A DNA stretch of 64,000 bases, taken from assembly GCF_015207285.1 (NCBI RefSeq), contig NZ_JADEXD010000008.1, positions 1 through 64,000 on the forward strand. The letters run 5' to 3'. Below the pieces are notes generated by a model. It saw nothing but the letters and a program-made list of their open reading frames with translations, did no database searches and was not told the origin of the DNA. Shown piece after piece: positions 6,442 through 61,392 of this stretch. The translations under genes and the position numbers were made by a program. Each line of letters opens with the position of its first letter. Position 1 is the first letter of the stretch. This stretch comes from Tychonema sp. LEGE 07203 (lineage in GTDB: Bacteria > Cyanobacteriota > Cyanobacteriia > Cyanobacteriales > Microcoleaceae).

Positions 6442-7275
6442 TTAAATTAGTGGTTCCCAATTACAGATAGACTCTGGCTCGATCGGGCAGGTTTTGGGTG
6501 CGATCGGATTTCCGTTGAGTTCGAGATCGGTCAGTCTAGTCAAGGATGCTAGCGGTTTGATGTCGCTGATTTTATTGTCTCTGAGGTTGAGCCAAGTCAG
6601 GTTAGTCAAGGATGCTAGCGGTTTGATGTCGCTGATTTTATTGTAGTTGATGATGAGCCAATCCAGGTTAGTCAAGGATGCTAGCGGTTTGAGATCGCTG
6701 ATTTCATTGCCGCTGAGGATGAGCCGAGTCAGGTTAGTTAAGGATGCTAGCGGTTTGAGATCGCTGATTTGGTTGTCGCTGAGGACGAGCCGAGTCAGGT
6801 TAGTTAAGGATGCTAGCGGTTTGATGTCGCTGATTTGGTTGTCGTTGAGGTAAAGCCAATCCAGGTTAGTCAAGGATGCTAGCGGTTTGATGTCGCTGAT
6901 TTGGTTGCCGTTGAGCCATATCCCAGTCAGGTTAGTCAAGGATGCTAGCGGTTTGAGATCGCTGATTTGACGCTCGAAGCCGAGGTTGAGTTGCGTGAGA
7001 CTAGAAAGTTTCTGATTAGCCAGATCGCACTCAGTAGTCCCCGCTTCCTTCAATAGCGCCTCAACAGTATATTTAGCTTCTGGACTCAAAGAAGCTTTTC
7101 GGCGACACCAATCCGCAAATGTTAGTCCACTATTTCGCGGTTGCCGATCGGCGACTAATGCGGAAGGTTTATTGTTTCCCGGTTGCGGATCTGCGGCTAA
7201 CTCGGAAGGTTTATTTCCACATGATGCTAGGCTGAGCGCACTACAAGTAACTGCTATCAACTTTGGTAAATTCAT
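6442..7275 (-). CDS. Leucine-rich repeat lipoprotein
   Basis: From the ATG at 7275 the product starts MNLPKLIAVTCSALSLASC, a signal peptide with a lipobox (LASC), so it is probably a lipoprotein. A spacer with two copies of a QPxN/KPSxL unit follows. About eight leucine-rich repeats of 22 residues come next, each like NQISDIKPLASLTNLTWLNL, the internalin-type short LRR. At DNA level the 66-bp repeats are almost identical, so copy number may vary by recombination. It probably binds proteins at the cell envelope; the partner is unknown. An alternative start at 7314 would bury the signal peptide and is less likely. Confidence 0.8.
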   Translation of the reverse strand: MNLPKLIAVTCSALSLASCGNKPSELAADPQPGNNKPSALVADRQPRNSGLTFADWCRRKASLSPEAKYTVEALLKEAGTTECDLANQKLSSLTQLNLGFERQISDLKPLASLTNLTGIWLNGNQISDIKPLASLTNLDWLYLNDNQISDIKPLASLTNLTRLVLSDNQISDLKPLASLTNLTRLILSGNEISDLKPLASLTNLDWLIINYNKISDIKPLASLTNLTWLNLRDNKISDIKPLASLTRLTDLELNGNPIAPKTCPIEPESICNWEPLI

Positions 7276-7473
7276 GTGTTTGTGTGCCACTATAAGGGTC
7301 ATCATCTTGTACATCTAACTTTCTGATACATGAAAATCCGACAAAAGTTTAAAAAATTTTGTTCGCAGTAAGGACTTCTGTCATTTTTGATCTTACCCAA
7401 ATCTGCCTTGAGGACTTTAGTCCTTACTACGAACTTTTGGGAGGACTTTAGTCCTTACTGCGAACCTTTGTTT

Positions 7474-8439
7474 TTAACCGCCCCAAACTTTCTTTAAAAC
7501 TTCTTGAGGAGAGATGTCTGCCATTTTGCCAGTAGGAGATTTAACTCCCAAAAATCGATCGCTCTTTGGCAACAATTTCGCCGGTTCAGTCGGGCCGAAC
7601 AAAGCTATTGTATAAGTTTGCACCGCCACCGCTAAGTGCATCGGCGCACTGTCAGTGCATATCATCAAATTAGCTGCAGCAATGGTGGCCGCCAACTTGC
7701 CAACATCATCCGGCGAGATTACTTTCAGCTTCGGACACAACTGAACTAACTTGGTCACGAAAGCTTCATCTTCGGGGCCTTTCACCACAACAACGGGCAA
7801 ATTAGGCTGCCGCTGCTGACAGTCTTCAATTATTTGTTTCCAGTTGTCTGTAGGGTAAATTTTGTCAATACCTTTAGACAGGGCTAGCTGACTGGAACCG
7901 CCGTGAATTAGAATGTAACCGCTTTCTTTTACACCCAGCCTCTGCTGTTCGGCTTCCGCCCACTGAATGTCCTGTTTTGGTACATTAATTGCTAGGGGCG
8001 GACAAGGATTTTCAATGTTGAATCCTTGGAGCAAATCGTGGTACATTGAAGCTGCGTACTGTTCTGTTTTGAGCGGTACGGGATCGGTGAGAAATAAACC
8101 ATTGTTGCTTCCTGCATAGCCAACTCTTTGGGGAATTCCAGTCAGCCACAGCAAAAGTCCTACAGTCCACCGCTGGCCGAGTGAAATCACTGCTTCGTAT
8201 TCGCGATCGCGAATTACGCCCAGTAAATTGCCCCAATCTGCCATAGAGTTGCGGTCTTTGAAATTGTACGTCAAAACTTCTTTGACGGACTTGCAGACTC
8301 GGTAAGCACTTTTTGCCCTCGGTTCCACGATGACATCAATCTGAGAGTCTGGATAAGACTGCTTGAGGTCGTCAAGAGTGGGGAAAAATAAAATTTGGTC
8401 GCCAATCCCGCCAGGGACAAGTGCTAGTATTCGCATCAT
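7474..8439 (-). CDS. Glycosyltransferase family 9 (heptosyltransferase-like)
   Basis: The 321-residue protein has the GT9 (ADP-heptose:LPS heptosyltransferase) pattern: N-terminal ILALVPGGIGDQILFFPTL, a central YILIHGGSSQLALSKG and a C-terminal nucleotide-sugar site MICTDSAPMHLAVA followed by IALFGPTEPAK. Length fits the family. It acts in the cytosol or at the inner face of the membrane, moving a sugar from a nucleotide donor to a surface glycan. The nearby GmhB-like phosphatase makes a heptose donor plausible but not proven. The ATG lies next to a HIP1-like site. Confidence 0.85.
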   Translation of the reverse strand: MMRILALVPGGIGDQILFFPTLDDLKQSYPDSQIDVIVEPRAKSAYRVCKSVKEVLTYNFKDRNSMADWGNLLGVIRDREYEAVISLGQRWTVGLLLWLTGIPQRVGYAGSNNGLFLTDPVPLKTEQYAASMYHDLLQGFNIENPCPPLAINVPKQDIQWAEAEQQRLGVKESGYILIHGGSSQLALSKGIDKIYPTDNWKQIIEDCQQRQPNLPVVVVKGPEDEAFVTKLVQLCPKLKVISPDDVGKLAATIAAANLMICTDSAPMHLAVAVQTYTIALFGPTEPAKLLPKSDRFLGVKSPTGKMADISPQEVLKKVWGG

Positions 8440-13947: not shown

Positions 13948-13970
13948 AAATGAGCACGGAGGGATTTGAA
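13948..13970. other. Left attachment repeat (attL)
   Basis: A 23-bp exact copy of the 3' end of tRNA-Arg(CCG) plus three flanking bases; its core is TGAGCACGGAGGGATTTGAA. The identical sequence at 22960-22982 is the true tRNA end. The left copy diverges right after the 23 bp, as expected for the hybrid site left by site-specific integration. Confidence 0.88.
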
Positions 13971-14126: not shown

Positions 14127-15560
14127 ATGAGCGAAAAATCAAATCCAGTCACAGCGAGTACCACCGCAGACTACCTTGTTGGTTACGAGCGGATTCTAGA
14201 CTACTTCCAACAAGCACAGAAAGAATGCCCCAAGGGGGTAGGGCTAAAAAGAGACAGGAAAGCCAGCGGTGGTTACATAACGCTGCAATTCAAGTTAGGT
14301 GACAAGCGGGTCAACAAAACTTGTGGGTGCTACCTGACGATGCAAGGTATCACTGATGCTCTGAGGAAAGCTCATCTAGTTGCGAGCGCTTTGCAATCAT
14401 TCTCTAGCGAAAGTCGATTTTTAGCCTGGTATGATGATGTTATTTTGGACAAAAACGTCATCAAGAATGATTTGATAACGTTTGGTGAGGCGATAGCAAA
14501 AGTAGAAAAAGAATACTGGGAGGGACGTACTAAACGCCGCCAACAACGCGACAGGAATAATGCTAGCCATCAAAGCTCTTGGGGATGTGTTTACGGACAA
14601 TATTTTAAACTGCTACCAAAAGAGGCAACTGTAAACTCAGTAGATATTTTGTCTGTCATTCACATTAAGAAGCAAGGAACTAAATGCTTTAAGAACTGTT
14701 TGTGTGCAATGAAAAAACTAGCTGAGACTATTGGCGATACTGAGTTGTTGTGTAGACTTAAAGAAATTGACGGTACGCAAACAGAATTTCGGGAAGACCT
14801 TCAAACTTTATCAGTGGATGATTTTCTCAAGCTTCGCATTCAGGTTCTCAGTGTCTCCGGTGACAAGCGATACCATCTGGAATCACGTAAACGGTGGCTG
14901 TGGGTATTCTCAATGCAGATGGTGTACGGCTTTCGGGTTCACGAAGTGTTTGCTATTCAGAACATCGACAAACCTTTTAAAACAAAGGATGGCGTTATTA
15001 TCCCGGCACTGAGTGAGCCAAATAACATAAAGATGATTGCTGTTGTTGGTGACAAGACATTACTCGACACGACGACTAAAACTGGCTACCGACTGTGTGT
15101 GCCGATGCTTCCCCCTACTCATCTTGACTTGATAGAATGCTTAGAAATCAAGTCAGGTAAATTGCCTGAGATTGGCACGCTATCAAGTAATCCGAAAACA
15201 ATTGCTGGACTGTATAGTGACCGCGCCCAAAATATTTTAAGAAGATGGAATAAAGGTTTTACCCAAACCCATGCTTTACGCCATCTCGCTAATCTCAGCG
15301 GTCAAATGGCTGGGATGTCTCAGGAAACAAGAGCTAAAAGTCTGGGGCATTCACCACAGATGAATGAGACTGTTTACAAGCGTCGCGCTAACACTGAGAC
15401 GACAATTGATTTATTAACTCAGTCTACGAAGGAAGCTATTCCTTTGGGCAGTGCGATCGGGGTTCTTAAACAGTTAGGTAGTGATGTAAAAAATATCAAA
15501 CTGCTAGCCGCTATTTACGGTATTACACCCCACGAAGTGATGGAGTTGCTTGCCGAATAA
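14127..15560 (+). CDS. int: Tyrosine recombinase (integrase)
   Basis: The 477-residue product is the likely integrase acting on the flanking repeats. Catalytic residues can be assigned: Arg270 in VYGFRVHEVF, His382 and Arg385 in THALRHLANLSGQ, His408 in KSLGHSPQMNE and the nucleophile Tyr417 in ETVYKRR. The N-terminal half (about 1-250) carries arm-binding and core-binding regions that I cannot resolve further. It sits 157 bp inside the left repeat and reads inward. GGGAGCGAAAG lies just before the ATG. The catalytic set is intact, so excision may still be possible. Confidence 0.9.
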   Translation: MSEKSNPVTASTTADYLVGYERILDYFQQAQKECPKGVGLKRDRKASGGYITLQFKLGDKRVNKTCGCYLTMQGITDALRKAHLVASALQSFSSESRFLAWYDDVILDKNVIKNDLITFGEAIAKVEKEYWEGRTKRRQQRDRNNASHQSSWGCVYGQYFKLLPKEATVNSVDILSVIHIKKQGTKCFKNCLCAMKKLAETIGDTELLCRLKEIDGTQTEFREDLQTLSVDDFLKLRIQVLSVSGDKRYHLESRKRWLWVFSMQMVYGFRVHEVFAIQNIDKPFKTKDGVIIPALSEPNNIKMIAVVGDKTLLDTTTKTGYRLCVPMLPPTHLDLIECLEIKSGKLPEIGTLSSNPKTIAGLYSDRAQNILRRWNKGFTQTHALRHLANLSGQMAGMSQETRAKSLGHSPQMNETVYKRRANTETTIDLLTQSTKEAIPLGSAIGVLKQLGSDVKNIKLLAAIYGITPHEVMELLAE

Positions 15561-15718: not shown

Positions 15719-16051
15719 ATGCCACATACAGACGATTGTCCTTGCGGGCGATCGCAACTCTTTACGTTTGACGGAACCGACAAAATTGTTATTGACCGTC
15801 AGGTTTTTAAACATTTGCTGGGTCTTGTTTGTCAATCCACTGATATTCTTGCCAACGCTCGTCATCGTGAAATTTTTCTCGAATCGCTCGACACTTACTT
15901 AACTGAAGCCACTGCTTTAGATGATAGCGATTGTTTTCGCGCTTCCCTTCTTCTCGATGCTTACTACGAATACGTTCCAGCAAGTTTAGTTTTGCTTAGT
16001 CATGTTTTGGATGAAGCTTATGAATTGATGCGGGGGCTTAAGCATGACTAA
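15719..16051 (+). CDS. Unknown small acidic protein of the element
   Basis: The 110-residue product is not recognised. It starts MPHTDDCPCGRSQLFTF, with a Cys-Pro-Cys near the N terminus, and is otherwise helical and acidic with no membrane segment. It opens a run of six ORFs joined by overlaps or zero gaps (15719-18085), which implies one transcript. Its last codons overlap the next ORF by 8 bp. The 158-bp space before it, after the integrase, may hold the promoter; a TTGACA occurs there but no convincing -10. Confidence 0.65.
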   Translation: MPHTDDCPCGRSQLFTFDGTDKIVIDRQVFKHLLGLVCQSTDILANARHREIFLESLDTYLTEATALDDSDCFRASLLLDAYYEYVPASLVLLSHVLDEAYELMRGLKHD

Positions 16052-16517
16052 ACCCCTCGTCAGCTACCGTCGCATCGACCAACTCAAGGCGATCGCTTTT
16101 TCCTGCGGGTTCACCAATGAAGATGCTCGACAGTTCGGCAAGCTTTCAAAAACTTCTACGTGGGAAGCACTGCTTGAGCTTTACTTGGTTGATGGTCAGA
16201 CACTAGACACGCTGCTAGACAAACCACTAGACAACGTAGACGCTGTAGACACGACACCTGACTTGCTTTGTGTAGACGGTTCTGTAGACACTGTAAACAC
16301 CCTTGACTGGACTAACGACGGTTCATTCCCTGTATGCGGTTTCAACCGCCAAAATTCCACCTTTTTAGACTGGGTTGATTTTGGACAACTCATCGCACTT
16401 GTACTCGCATCGGCAGGAGTGTTTGTGCTGGCAATGTCTATGTGGCGACAAATCAATCCCCTGAATTTATTTCCCTCCCCAGTTCGCATCAACATTCAAA
16501 TCGGGACAAAATTATGA
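16044..16517 (+). CDS. Membrane-anchored protein containing a DNA-repeat-coded segment
   Basis: The 157-residue protein is not recognised. Residues about 53-90 are an Asp-rich run of LD and VD dipeptides coded by repeated CTAGACA/TGTAGACA words (see the repeat entry). A single membrane segment follows at about 115-136 (LIALVLASAGVFVLAMSMW), then a basic tail. It overlaps its upstream neighbour by 8 bp and its downstream neighbour by the ATGA arrangement at 16514, so translation is probably coupled. The Asp-rich segment may be constrained by the DNA word more than by protein function. Confidence 0.6.
   Translation: MTKPLVSYRRIDQLKAIAFSCGFTNEDARQFGKLSKTSTWEALLELYLVDGQTLDTLLDKPLDNVDAVDTTPDLLCVDGSVDTVNTLDWTNDGSFPVCGFNRQNSTFLDWVDFGQLIALVLASAGVFVLAMSMWRQINPLNLFPSPVRINIQIGTKL
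16202..16299. repeat. TAGACA box array inside a coding region
   Basis: Eight related 8-mers occur in one strand: NCTAGACA starting at 16202, 16214 and 16226; CGTAGACG at 16235; TGTAGACA at 16244 and 16283; TGTAGACG at 16271; TGTAAACA at 16292. Spacings are 12, 12, 9, 9, 27, 12 and 9. Two more ACTAGACA boxes 12 bp apart lie at 17343 and 17355. The same words recur at 22162-22499, at the other end of the element. Confidence 0.8.
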
Positions 16518-18639: not shown

Positions 18640-21396
18640 ATGTATTCAAATGATACATCAAATTCTGCATTTCCACAATTTAATGGTTTCATCCCAAAGC
18701 ACCTGACTGAGTGGGTTGAAGGCTCAGCCGTATCGGAAGCGATCGCCTCCCTCAACATCGAATCGCTGACGGTCAAAGAAATCAACGAACGCATCCGTCC
18801 AAAAGAACCCATCAAAACAGGGGGTTGGTGGTGTCGAGGTGTCTTGTGGAAAACAGGTCAACGGGCCGGCAATTGGTACGGACAAGGCAAGCTAGATAAG
18901 TCACATCAGCCAGAAGGTTCTAAACCGCGCAAATACCTTACAGGTAGCGGCATGGAACCCGACGCAATTTTCCTAGCAATGCCTGATAGAGATTATTGGG
19001 CAAAAGTTCACGCTGACAAATCCATCCCCCGTCATTGGACAGAGGGAACTAAGAAGGCCGGCGCTGGTTTAAGCATTGACCTAGCTGTTATTGCGCTCAC
19101 GGGTGTTTGGAATTGGGGCAAGGACGGAGAGCTGGCAGCTTTTGTTAAGCAATGGACACAGCCCGACACCATCCACTATATAGACTTTGATTCGGACTAT
19201 GCGGCCAACCCATATTGCCGTGCAGCCATTTTGAAGTTTGGCCGCTTACTGGAACAGGAGGGTTGCGAGGTATACGTAACGGTTTGGGATACCAAGTTTA
19301 AAGGGATGGATGATTTTATCAAAGCTAACGGTGGTGACGCTTTCAAAGAGGCTGTAGCGAGTGCGTTACCTCTCACTAAGTGGGAGAAACAGCTTAAGAA
19401 AGGCGATCGCAAAAATGACGCTTCTAACCGTAATATTTCTTTAACTCCTCACCCGCGCACGCGAGAAGAAGTAGTATGCCAGAAGTATGACAGTAGTAAA
19501 AGTGAGTACATCCCAGACAATGCACCAGTTGCAGAGCAAAATTACGTGCATAAAGCCATTGAGGCACTGTATTCTGACAAGCCTTGGGTATCGATAGCGG
19601 GGCAGCTTTTTGAATTCACTGGGACTCATTACGAACTGCGATCAGAAGCTGCCGAGAAACGACGTATTCTTGACTGGTTAAGCACTTACTCTGAATTTGT
19701 GAAGGGGAAATATCGCTGCAATCGTTTTAACTCTGCCAGTGCTAACGAGGTCTACAACTGTATGGTCTTAGCTGTGGCCGTAGACCCTAATACCATCAAT
19801 CCAGATGGGTTGAACTCTTCTAAGGGGATAGTGAAAATCAATCCTGATGGCTCTCACTCGCTTGTGCCACATGACCCCAACCAGGTCTATACCTACGTCG
19901 GCTGCAACTATGACCCCAACATTGATTCTGCAGATTGCGATCGCCTTTTAGAATGCCTGGAACCGTCCCAGCGCGAGATACTTTTGAGAACTGCTGCTGC
20001 TGCATTGAATTTGAAGCTGGTGCGTTCAAGATTGACGGGACGGGGCGTTAAAGGTTTGCTGTGCTACGGCGAGGGGTCTAACGGTAAGGATACTCTGCGG
20101 GCTGTGTTGGCCGCTGTCTTTGGGCGGGGGATGACTGGGAAGTCTTTGTCTGACTTCAGGTCCTATGACAATGGTCGCAAGTTTTCTCTGGCAGGAATTG
20201 AAGGAAGCACCTGTAACTGGGCTTCTGAAAATACTGCAAAAGTAGACTTGGATACCATTCAGAGTCTTAAGCAGTTCATCACGGGCGACCCTCTTGATAT
20301 TGAGCGCAAGGGTAAAGACAGCTATGAATACAAGCCTGCCGCTATCTTTCTCGCCAACTGCAACAAACTACCATCCATCACCGGGGGAACAGCGGCAATT
20401 GATGACCGATACGGCATTTTGAGTTTTAAAAAAACTTACAAACGTGATGCTGACTTGTCTCAGGGCGAGCTGGAAGCTGACCCGCGCTTTAAGGATGATG
20501 AGAATTTTATCCTTGAGCGGATTGCCCCGGCGATGCTTAACAAGATGCTGAAGCGGTTGCCACTGCTGTTGACCGAGGGCATTGACTATAAGGCAACACG
20601 TGAAGCAATGCGGGAAGCTCAGGAGGAAAGTCGGCACTTGTGGCAGTTCGCTCGCGAGGTTGGTTTGGAGGTTCAGTCTGGCGGCCGTGTTTGGGTTACG
20701 GATTTATGGCAGCAGTTGCAAGACTGGTATGTGGAATCTGGGATTTTAGAGATTGAGGTCAGCGACAAGAGCAAGCAAAAGCTAGTTTGGAATGAACTTT
20801 CTAACAAGTACGATGCCCCGGTGAAAGCTGTAAACCAGTTGTATGCAAGGTTGTGCGAGATTTTCCCTAAATTGACAAAACATCGTTGTGAAGACCGCGA
20901 CAACCCAGAACGGAGAGGGCAAAAATTCTTGATGGGAATCAACTTCGTGCAAAGTTCCACAAAAACTCACAAAACTGGGTTGGCAGAGTTGGCAGTAGAC
21001 ACAGCAAGCGTTACAGGGTTGGCAAGTGAGTTGGCAAAAAATAGTGCCAACCCAGTTGCCAACTCACAAACCCTTACACACAGCGCTGCCAACCCTGCCA
21101 ACCCAGTTTCCTCACCTTTTGCGGAAGTGTGCAATTTACTCTCTCAACTTACGGATGATGAGCGACAAAAAATGGCAGATTTACTCACTGGCATTCCTTG
21201 CTCTGACCCCATCAAGGCTTTCAGAGTCGGAGACAAAGTGGCTGGCAACAAACCAGAGGACTCTAGCTACAACTGGCACGGTCGCATCGTTGAGATTCAC
21301 ACGAGCATCAGTTGCAAGGTTGACTGGCAAGAGCGCGAAGGGGTCAGAGGTGGCCGAATAATCTCAATGCTCTTCTGCCATCTGCGGAAAATCTAA
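18640..21396 (+). CDS. Replication protein: DUF3854/TOPRIM-like plus SF3 helicase
   Basis: The 918-residue product looks like plasmid or phage primase-helicases of cyanobacteria. The N-terminal DUF3854/TOPRIM-like half shows Glu135 (TEGTKKAGAG), Asp182 and Asp184 (YIDFDSD) and KGMDDFIKANGG. A D5-type region (about 300-440) leads to the SF3 helicase with Walker A GEGSNGKDTLR (477-487), WASENTAK and IFLANCNKLPSI. From about residue 770 the tail is low in complexity (TGLAELA, ANPANPV) and is coded by a mirror-symmetric DNA array; a final beta-rich segment (FRVGDKVAGNKPEDSSY) follows. It probably starts element replication. A hairpin terminator follows the stop. Confidence 0.85.
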   Translation: MYSNDTSNSAFPQFNGFIPKHLTEWVEGSAVSEAIASLNIESLTVKEINERIRPKEPIKTGGWWCRGVLWKTGQRAGNWYGQGKLDKSHQPEGSKPRKYLTGSGMEPDAIFLAMPDRDYWAKVHADKSIPRHWTEGTKKAGAGLSIDLAVIALTGVWNWGKDGELAAFVKQWTQPDTIHYIDFDSDYAANPYCRAAILKFGRLLEQEGCEVYVTVWDTKFKGMDDFIKANGGDAFKEAVASALPLTKWEKQLKKGDRKNDASNRNISLTPHPRTREEVVCQKYDSSKSEYIPDNAPVAEQNYVHKAIEALYSDKPWVSIAGQLFEFTGTHYELRSEAAEKRRILDWLSTYSEFVKGKYRCNRFNSASANEVYNCMVLAVAVDPNTINPDGLNSSKGIVKINPDGSHSLVPHDPNQVYTYVGCNYDPNIDSADCDRLLECLEPSQREILLRTAAAALNLKLVRSRLTGRGVKGLLCYGEGSNGKDTLRAVLAAVFGRGMTGKSLSDFRSYDNGRKFSLAGIEGSTCNWASENTAKVDLDTIQSLKQFITGDPLDIERKGKDSYEYKPAAIFLANCNKLPSITGGTAAIDDRYGILSFKKTYKRDADLSQGELEADPRFKDDENFILERIAPAMLNKMLKRLPLLLTEGIDYKATREAMREAQEESRHLWQFAREVGLEVQSGGRVWVTDLWQQLQDWYVESGILEIEVSDKSKQKLVWNELSNKYDAPVKAVNQLYARLCEIFPKLTKHRCEDRDNPERRGQKFLMGINFVQSSTKTHKTGLAELAVDTASVTGLASELAKNSANPVANSQTLTHSAANPANPVSSPFAEVCNLLSQLTDDERQKMADLLTGIPCSDPIKAFRVGDKVAGNKPEDSSYNWHGRIVEIHTSISCKVDWQEREGVRGGRIISMLFCHLRKI
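20979..21102. repeat. Mirror-symmetric array of eight TTGGCA boxes
   Basis: GTTGGCA starts at 20979, 20988, 21018 and 21030; its complement TGCCAAC starts at 21045, 21057, 21087 and 21096. Gaps between starts are 9, 30, 12, 15, 12, 30, 9, and every left box reflects exactly onto a right box about 21040.5. The outer arms (20972-20995 and 21086-21109) match over 24 bp with one mismatch; sequence between the inner boxes does not. The array lies within the coding tail of the replication gene. Confidence 0.9.
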
Positions 21397-21553: not shown

Positions 21554-21904
21554 TCAAATCAATCTCAACGTTCGTTTTTTAGCAGATTTCAATTCTGCTT
21601 TCAAGCTTTCAATCTCAGCGCGCAATTCATTATTTTGACAAGTCAAAGCATGAGCACAAAAACGCAAATAATGTAGCTTCATGGTTTTGGAACCATCAAA
21701 ATCTTTGGAATCTTCATCCTCAAAAGAATAAAACGGGGGAGAGAAATATTCCTGCCCATCAAGATATCTAGCAATTTCCAAGAGCTGGTCAGCCAAAGAA
21801 ATTGGTACTCTGATGGTCTTAATATCGTTTGTAGACCATGTAGAAGGACGCCCTGACCCTAATCGCTTTCCACCACGCCCCCTAGCCTTAACTGATTTAA
21901 TCAT
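21554..21904 (-). CDS. Ribbon-helix-helix-like DNA-binding protein with basic N terminus
   Basis: The 116-residue product has a basic glycine-rich, AT-hook-like N terminus (RGRGGKRLGSGRPSTW) and then TIRVPISLADQLLEIARYLD, which reads as a ribbon-helix-helix strand and helix. The C terminus is a charged coiled coil (NNELRAEIESLKAELKSAKK). It probably represses or helps partition or replicate the element. It converges with the replication gene and is divergent from the second ribbon-helix-helix gene across a 342-bp spacer. No toxin partner is visible. Confidence 0.65.
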   Translation of the reverse strand: MIKSVKARGRGGKRLGSGRPSTWSTNDIKTIRVPISLADQLLEIARYLDGQEYFSPPFYSFEDEDSKDFDGSKTMKLHYLRFCAHALTCQNNELRAEIESLKAELKSAKKRTLRLI

Positions 21905-22959: not shown

Positions 22960-22982
22960 AAATGAGCACGGAGGGATTTGAA
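22960..22982. other. Right attachment repeat (attR) in tRNA-Arg
   Basis: The 23-bp copy identical to 13948-13970 overlaps the last 20 bases of the tRNA gene (22963-22982). The tRNA is left whole on this side, which is usual when an element integrates at a tRNA 3' end. Confidence 0.88.
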
Positions 22983-23035
22983 CCCCCGACCCTCAGGACC
23001 GGAACCTGATGCTCTATCCACTGAGCTACGTGCCC
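22963..23035 (-). tRNA. tRNA-Arg (CCG)
   Basis: The minus strand folds to a 73-nt cloverleaf. The acceptor GGGCACG pairs with CGTGCTC (one G-U pair), the D arm is GCTC/GAGC, the anticodon stem is TCAGG/CCTGA with loop TTCCGGT (anticodon CCG), the variable loop has 5 nt, and the T arm has loop TTCAAAT. The CCA end is not encoded. It is the integration target of the element on its 3' side. Confidence 0.95.
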
Positions 23036-61236: not shown

Positions 61237-61392
61237 TTGTTATTAGTCAGTTGGCAGTTGGCAGTTGGCAGTTGCTAGTTGGCAGTTGGCAGTTGTTAGT
61301 TGTTAGTTGTTAGTTGTTAGTTGTTAGTTGTTAATTGGCAACAGTCAACAGTCAACAGTCAACAGTCAACAGTCAACAGTCAACAGCTAACA
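61234..61392. repeat. Heptamer tandem arrays (TTGGCAG and GTCAACA)
   Basis: TTGGCAG and TTAGTTG heptamers are followed by GTCAACA units, then GCCCTGTTTGGCCAAT duplicated twice. It lies between the MAPEG gene and yajQ. Confidence 0.8.

Follow-up and report, generated by a model that had tools for sequence, protein, structure and literature searches.

An eight-box mirrored array inside a cyanobacterial rep gene as a candidate replication origin

We examined a 64,000-nucleotide stretch of DNA from Tychonema sp. LEGE 07203 (contig NZ_JADEXD010000008.1, positions 1 to 64,000; the window below), in which a putative mobile element carries a 918-codon gene, rep, for a primase- and helicase-like protein (Rep). 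Codons 780 to 821 of this gene hold four GTTGGCA boxes followed by four TGCCAAC boxes in an exact mirror arrangement (Table 1). From sequence comparison we propose, with a probability of roughly 0.87, that the array is the element's replication origin, read by the winged helix of Rep, and that the reading frame has been extended through it. Rep, which combines a primase-like DUF3854 domain with a hexameric helicase of the SF3/D5 type, would read the boxes via a winged helix encoded a few codons upstream, and the mirrored sets of four boxes would position two Rep rings face to face across a short A/T-rich center. The opposed rings would melt this center and unwind the DNA bidirectionally. Where the Rep of a relative stops behind its winged helix, the array directly follows the stop codon; in the window, the frame would have been prolonged across the origin into a small, exchangeable C-terminal part, and translation of the origin would yield a disordered linker. 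The boxes and the winged helix would act as a single specificity cassette, with boxes and wing changing jointly.

The initial annotation of this DNA had reported eight boxes with start spacings of 9-30-12-15-12-30-9 and four mirrored pairs each summing to 42081, and all of these figures were exact on recount. Its outer arms of 24 bp are a fair description, given that an inverted-repeat search returned 48-nt outer arms (20948-20995 and 21086-21133) that are 81% complementary. The array lies in the rep coding region, as had been stated, but not in a coding tail: the segment is a linker, and a C-terminal part (amino acids [aa] ~826 to 918) comes after it. Shuffling of synonymous codons, suggested there as a check on chance, placed the array well beyond it. 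When codons were resampled synonymously at the frequencies of the gene itself, leaving the peptide unchanged, eight TTGGCA/TGCCAA words arose in 1 of 20,000 trials, and the best mirrored 6-mer in 200 synonymous shuffles had two pairs, compared with four in the observed array, which is the sole four-pair mirror in the window. Across the fetched loci L138 to L307 (2.03 Mb), mirrors of at least four pairs occurred 17 times in the 0.15 Mb formed by the rep tail plus 350 nt and 0 times elsewhere; those of at least three pairs occurred 35 times in the rep tail plus 350 nt and 11 times elsewhere.

Similar words are found at two other places in the window. Positions 1757 to 1972 hold a cluster of TTGGCA/GTTGGC words, including three minus-strand copies 21 bp apart and a three-pair mirror (center, ~1861) of closely spaced repeats. 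Outside the element, positions 61251 to 61388 hold runs of 7-nt tandem repeats, first of GTTGGCA type, then GTTGTTA, then CAACAGT; these simple repeats contain the TTGGCA word, and the window-wide TTGGCA count is therefore inflated.

Relatives in the same genus (58% identity limit) share one geometry and carry many different boxes. Box starts at 0-9-39-50/51, mirrored in both arms, fit all 16 distinct same-genus linkers, and every fit exceeded those of six synonymous shuffles and six codon permutations of its own tail. These 16 are what remained of 17 aligned sequences once L055 was omitted, a 5' fragment of a frameshifted gene that is already represented by its 3' fragment, L036. L035 and L040 each contain an identical second copy, which was not counted separately; L048 matches without the wing and array, and L040_3303, a 313-aa open reading frame (ORF) without linker or array, falls below the identity limit. 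Three of the arrays carry a ninth, right-hand box. Together, the 16 arrays have 13 box consensuses in about 10 groups, of which GGGTTGGCA, GAGTTACCA, and ATCCGCAGA were found twice each and GCGTTGGCA, GTGGAGCCA, TTGGAGCCA, TCGGTTCCA, CATCGCAAC, CATCGCAAG, GCTCCAGCA, TCCTCAGCA, TCCTCACCG, and ATCCCCAGA once each (the consensuses of L057 and L059 were manually moved by one position and given a terminal A). Box columns contain 1.79 bits of information within one array and 0.03 to 0.64 bits across homologs; boxes are thus alike within an element and unlike between elements. The initial annotation had proposed a search of related elements for the same spacing and had named homologs with the protein tail, lacking the boxes or the spacing, as evidence to the contrary. 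Within the genus the opposite was found: spacing and mirror are kept, the box letters change jointly, and the C-terminal part is what gets exchanged. Behind the linker, Rep relatives have no fewer than three kinds of C-terminal part that are dissimilar to one another, and their exchange is independent of box type. The right gap of the 16 arrays, whose boxes differ, contains 0.98 bits per column, compared with 0.54 in the left gap, and the 30 nt after the array contain 0.93. We speculate that the conserved right gap is perhaps a host-protein site or a priming site.

Box identity follows the wing of the winged helix. With helicase distance controlled, box distance was associated with distance in the wing (aa 749 to 773) at a partial rho of 0.54 (0 of 1,000 permutations). 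The values for the preceding stretches were -0.04 (aa 640 to 664), 0.46 (665 to 689), 0.27 (690 to 714), 0.24 (715 to 734), and 0.41 (735 to 748); the C-terminal domain (aa 855 to 918) gave 0.05. Columns 750, 751, 755, 756, 764, and 768 are among those most associated with box identity, and the modeled wing loop spans ~749 to 762. Two pairs of elements are instructive. L033 and L034, from one genome, are identical in the helicase (100%) and nearly so in the C terminus (99%), with a winged helix at 85% and the boxes GTGGAGCCA versus TCGGTTCCA. L054 and L058 have an identical box, with a winged helix at 85% and a helicase at only 66%. Both pairs have the pattern expected of an exchanged cassette. 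We would give even odds to the idea that a contiguous stretch of ~450 bp, comprising the winged helix and the embedded origin, is exchangeable as one specificity cassette, such that a new origin and its matching reader are gained in one recombination event and the dissimilar C-terminal parts are exchanged independently. Because origin and reader would be acquired together, new compatibility groups would arise without a stage of mismatched Rep and origin.

Mirrored arrays recur in more distant relatives. A query with the full protein matched 73 of 98 genomes, many in DUF3854 only, and a query with the helicase part matched 55 genomes at the order level and 27 at the class level, out of 388 in each case. 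Among the 75 of 87 tails that reach at least 300 nt, 55 have at least two mirrored pairs, 25 at least three, and 12 at least four. A survey of 153 homologs, one of them too short, found at least two pairs in 56 of 79 genome loci, 39 of which had at least three, and in all 11 plasmids, 6 of which had at least three; its genome set overlaps the 75 tails, and the counts are not additive. Two of the plasmid values are weak, as L140 (AAATAT) looks like chance and that of L139 was reached in 9 of 60 shuffles. Inside the gene, 0 of 62 viral loci had at least two mirrored pairs. In Crocosphaera MO_199.B6, whose Rep is ~43% identical, two elements come close to the same-genus spacing, at 9-30-12 / 11-30-9 and 9-30-11 / 12-30-9 (a single step of 11 in either element), with two further boxes. 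All 15 listed Nostoc/Desmonostoc elements have left-arm steps of 21-11-12-31-9, arms ~105 nt apart, and more variable right arms; added up, these left-arm distances come close to multiples of 10.5 bp, and the boxes would thus face about the same side of the helix. Two Cyanobacterium aponinum plasmids, of 4586 and 4363 bp, are minimal replicons. Besides a Rep frame, they have two small annotated genes apiece, and the single four-pair array of each, made of GACTCA boxes in the larger plasmid and GGGTAT boxes in the smaller, lies in the Rep linker. Both AL20115 and AL20118 are listed with plasmids of the two sizes, and one of each size was analyzed; from these sizes, we infer that the two box types coexist in one cell.

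Viral Reps end directly after the winged helix, and most have an array behind the gene. We scanned up to 600 nt behind the stop codon of 55 distinct short-tail homologs, with 60 shuffles each. In 41 of them (40 of 45 viral and 1 of 10 genome loci), a word recurs in both orientations to a degree that none of the 60 shuffles reached, and in the sole genome locus, L190, the gene is interrupted inside the linker. L230 and L252 can be read directly, with several boxes, an A/T-rich center, and several reversed boxes. Two-armed arrays, 68 coding and 53 non-coding, have near-equal median box numbers and median centers of 93.5 and 93 nt, and centers of at least 20 nt are richer in A/T than the preceding gene (0.66 versus 0.57, coding; 0.57 versus 0.43, non-coding); single rows of this tally may be chance, because the best-fitting word was taken each time. 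Measured from the approximate winged-helix end, the median position of the first box is 6 nt downstream in 65 coding arrays and -18 in 55 non-coding ones, some boxes therefore extending into the last codons. Arrays of the same geometry and different boxes in relatives, together with these arrays outside the gene in short-Rep relatives, strongly support the suggestion, first made in the initial annotation, of DNA-level selection for a protein-binding origin. Where short Reps have no array directly downstream, array matches occur elsewhere in L178, L180, L227, and L307. In L307, a 13-copy two-orientation TGAGAA array (7437 to 7657) lies ~2.7 kb beyond a viral Rep homolog whose stop codon has no array directly behind it.

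Among 17 loci with CyRepA-like relatives (L015 to L031), a scan returned three dense two-orientation arrays, which we rejected as CyRepA-type examples: L016 and L017 are SF3-type, and L030 has the 7-nt steps of simple tandem repeats. L018 is also SF3-type and had no dense array in that scan.

Several observations weigh against the array as a Rep-read origin. Part of the wing-box association may be linkage: a downstream stretch as near as the wing (aa 830 to 854, 25 aa) gave a partial rho of 0.26 (13 of 1,000 permutations), and aa 665 to 689 gave the 0.46 noted above. As linkage contributes, adjacency is inseparable in full from coadaptation with 16 sequences. A few same-genus arrays have degenerate boxes, and the compact form with its 8-nt center differs from the ~93-nt A/T-rich center of other members. 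In 23 of 79 genome loci, the tail has no mirror of at least two pairs. Strict mirroring is less pronounced where the array follows a short Rep, with at least two pairs beyond all shuffles in 24 of 55 (all among the 45 viral) and at least three in 1; no array lies directly downstream in 9 of 10 short-tail genome loci, including Laspinema. The viral arrays are not independent, since 34 of the 40 have a GCGGACGCA-type box. GC skews in 11 plasmids are weak and do not coincide consistently with the array. Two elements sharing a box are present in Nostoc sp. WHI (L209 and L212), N. flagelliforme (L200 and L208), and N. foliaceum (L193 and L195), which argues against a strict compatibility rule.

Four other explanations were weighed. 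It seems improbable that the array is an operator on which Rep or a neighboring small DNA-binding protein controls rep transcription or copy number, with the origin elsewhere. Ribbon-helix-helix (RHH/CopG-type) genes are annotated near rep in some fetched plasmids, and small ORFs adjoin rep in the window. Exact TTGGCA, however, does not occur between 17888 and 20979 and hence is not found just upstream of the rep start (18640), box identity tracks the Rep wing, and the arrays that persist 3' of short Reps would be poorly sited for a rep operator. The autoregulatory site that the initial annotation had offered as an option thus finds little support. We give a similarly low chance to a partition (parS-like) or copy-control (handcuffing) locus that is not the start site itself. 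Iteron arrays can play either role in other plasmids, and three fetched plasmids have ParM/StbA genes annotated ~1 kb from the 5' end of rep; yet the array is on the 3' side of rep, at least 3 kb from those genes, annotated ParA genes lie far from rep in other plasmids, and the 4.4- to 4.6-kb plasmids, which have no annotated partition gene, have only this array each.

Selection for a hairpin, in which folded DNA or RNA would have the boxes as stem halves, was also raised in the initial annotation, and we consider it very unlikely. The boxes do mirror perfectly, and inverted repeats of 10 to 48 nt are present. In the 13 of 16 same-genus arrays with exactly 4+4 boxes, though, 41 box positions deviate, and the mirror partner has the matching change for only 7 of them. 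This lack of matched changes led us to reject the idea; the 21-nt gaps are complementary at 108 of 273 positions (40%) compared with 434 of 468 (93%) for the boxes, and the arms are ~100 nt apart in many relatives. Least credible, to a negligible degree, is a low-complexity protein linker whose repeats reflect a repeated peptide with shared codons, since, although ELA/ANP and similar peptide repeats occur in every relative and synonymous shuffles retain part of the geometry score as the peptide itself mirrors it, one box read on opposite strands encodes different peptides in the left and right arms, eight boxes are as rare in resamples as given above, and arrays also stand outside genes, the segment here being modeled as disordered.

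The architecture of Rep is consistent with the array being a Rep-read origin. Pfam matches were DUF3854 (2.9e-22) and DUF5906 (6.9e-14), with no DEXDc or Rep_3 domain among them; named PHROG matches were primases and helicases, and no phage O protein was among the named PHROG and Pfam matches. The structure model is confident for the helicase and winged-helix region (predicted local distance difference test [pLDDT], 81 to 93 for the winged-helix block), and the array-coded segment is predicted to be a disordered linker. After it come a short helical stretch and a small C-terminal part (aa 826 to 918), mostly poorly modeled. The SaPI5 primase-helicase (7ola) was the top profile match among solved structures (1.8e-16) and ranked first by Z score: 27.0 over aa 290 to 761 (root mean square deviation, 6.1; 380 aligned) and 26.9 over 289 to 771, followed by poxvirus D5/E5 and AsfvPrimPol. 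By Foldseek E value, AsfvPrimPol was first and 7ola sixth. The alignment with SaPI5 7om0 extends to model aa 771, the winged helix being compared as part of a longer model. The N-terminal part matched the DnaG RNA polymerase domain (Z, 13.6), and the E1 helicase fold matched the Rep model at Z of 12.5 to 12.7.

Parts of the proposed scheme have precedents. Mirrored boxes serve an SF3 helicase that forms two opposed rings in SV40 T antigen and papillomavirus E1, and the SV40 origin is non-coding with four boxes. The origin-binding domain of those proteins is N-terminal according to PMC7581432, unlike in the window Rep, whose proposed box reader is the winged helix after the helicase. That source also describes SaPI and SCCmec (Cch2) relatives in which the C-terminal domain recognizes iterons directly downstream of the gene and for which two hexamers were proposed (PMC7581432). 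Like the window Rep, SaPI5 Rep and SCCmec Cch2 combine an SF3/D5 helicase with a C-terminal winged helix, and their iterons lie immediately 3' of the coding sequence. They differ in that the window Rep and many cyanobacterial relatives run the frame through the candidate origin, which is downstream of the gene only in short-Rep relatives; in addition, the window array is an exact 4+4 mirror, and the window Rep has a DUF3854 (TOPRIM/DnaG-like) primase domain. Lambda O is not a helicase, and the lambda origin has four iterons beside an A/T-rich region. As proposed here, the iterons of phage lambda lie inside the initiator gene and are translated; the window Rep, in contrast, matches primase and helicase families in PHROG, not O. 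Lambda and Stx phage origins are located mid gene O, and added iterons add residues to O (PMC7466680); an origin inside repA was weighed by analogy in a mycobacterial prophage study (PMC7157519). CyRepA1 and CyRepA2, cyanobacterial plasmid initiators, have an N-terminal DUF3854 domain (PMC10079941) and share it with the window Rep, but their helicase is DEXDc rather than SF3/DUF5906. Rep_3-type iteron plasmids differ in the Rep_3 domain itself. An origin within its initiator is already known from lambda O, while the SF3 form with concerted box swapping looks new; the window would unite an SF3 self-loading initiator with a frame that runs through its own origin. Full-text literature searches, with subscription papers mostly outside their coverage, turned up no description of these arrays or of an origin for this replicon family.

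The rep gene belongs to a segment of ~9.0 kb, enclosed by 23-bp direct repeats, that also has an integrase-like ORF and small ORFs; from its sequence, we regard it as a putative mobile element integrated at tRNA-Arg. The integrase-like ORF had no Pfam or PHROG match at an E value of 0.1, and its H-x-x-R...LGH...Y pattern is one that we take to be that of a tyrosine recombinase. Ten of 11 related loci scanned contain one tRNA gene (Gly, Val, Ser, Leu, or Arg). Tandem, near-identical element copies (G005 and G004; L035 and L040) agree at 7167 of 7191 and 9095 of 9115 positions, with periods of 7112 and 9055 bp, and those in L035 and L040 adjoin tRNA-Arg(tct). This suggests repeated integration of a circle, as would be expected from reintegrating circles. 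The 313-aa ORF of L040 (2398 to 3336, and in the tandem copy) has a Rep-like winged helix at its end (51% to rep aa 664 to 773) without linker or array and is followed by a frame that resembles, by eye, window ORF 16044-16517; it is possibly a separate regulator or a rep remnant.

Table 1. Coordinates in the window of the element, the rep gene, and the mirrored array
Feature	Position	Strand
attL-like copy of the 23-bp direct repeat	13948..13970	.
Integrase-like ORF	14127..15560	+
rep gene, 918 aa: DUF3854 primase-like, SF3/D5 (DUF5906) helicase, winged helix, linker, C-terminal part	18640..21396	+
DUF3854 domain, aa 119-233; fold matches DnaG RNA polymerase domain	18994..19338	+
DUF5906 SF3 helicase core, aa 476-580	20065..20379	+
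Winged-helix region, aa ~666-771; wing 749-762, proposed box reader	20635..20952	+
Linker, codons 772-826, model pLDDT < 50, coincides with array	20953..21117	+
Eight-box mirror array, 4 GTTGGCA + 4 TGCCAAC, proposed replication origin	20979..21102	.
Box L1, GTTGGCA	20979..20985	+
Box L2, GTTGGCA	20988..20994	+
Box L3, GTTGGCA	21018..21024	+
Box L4, GTTGGCA	21030..21036	+
Array center AAAAATAG, 8 nt, A/T-rich, separates the arms	21037..21044	.
Box R4, TGCCAAC on +	21045..21051	-
Box R3, TGCCAAC on +	21057..21063	-
Right gap, conserved in 16 same-genus arrays, consensus AcAAaCCcTtacacAgagcg	21066..21086	+
Box R2, TGCCAAC on +	21087..21093	-
Box R1, TGCCAAC on +	21096..21102	-
C-terminal part, aa ~827-918, swapped between dissimilar types in relatives	21118..21393	+
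Small ORF, short match (12/31 identical) to ORF near rep in 4.6-kb minimal plasmid	21554..21904	-
Second copy of the 23-bp repeat, 3' end of tRNA-Arg gene	22960..22982	.
tRNA-Arg (CCG), proposed integration target	22963..23035	-

The array offers a readable candidate origin for a widespread family of cyanobacterial replicons. The ~10 box groups within one genus are a natural series of matched reader and box pairs, which opens two matters to direct testing: the code by which SF3/D5 initiators recognize their boxes and the way in which new compatibility groups arise. Small compatible replicons of this kind could serve as tools for filamentous cyanobacteria.

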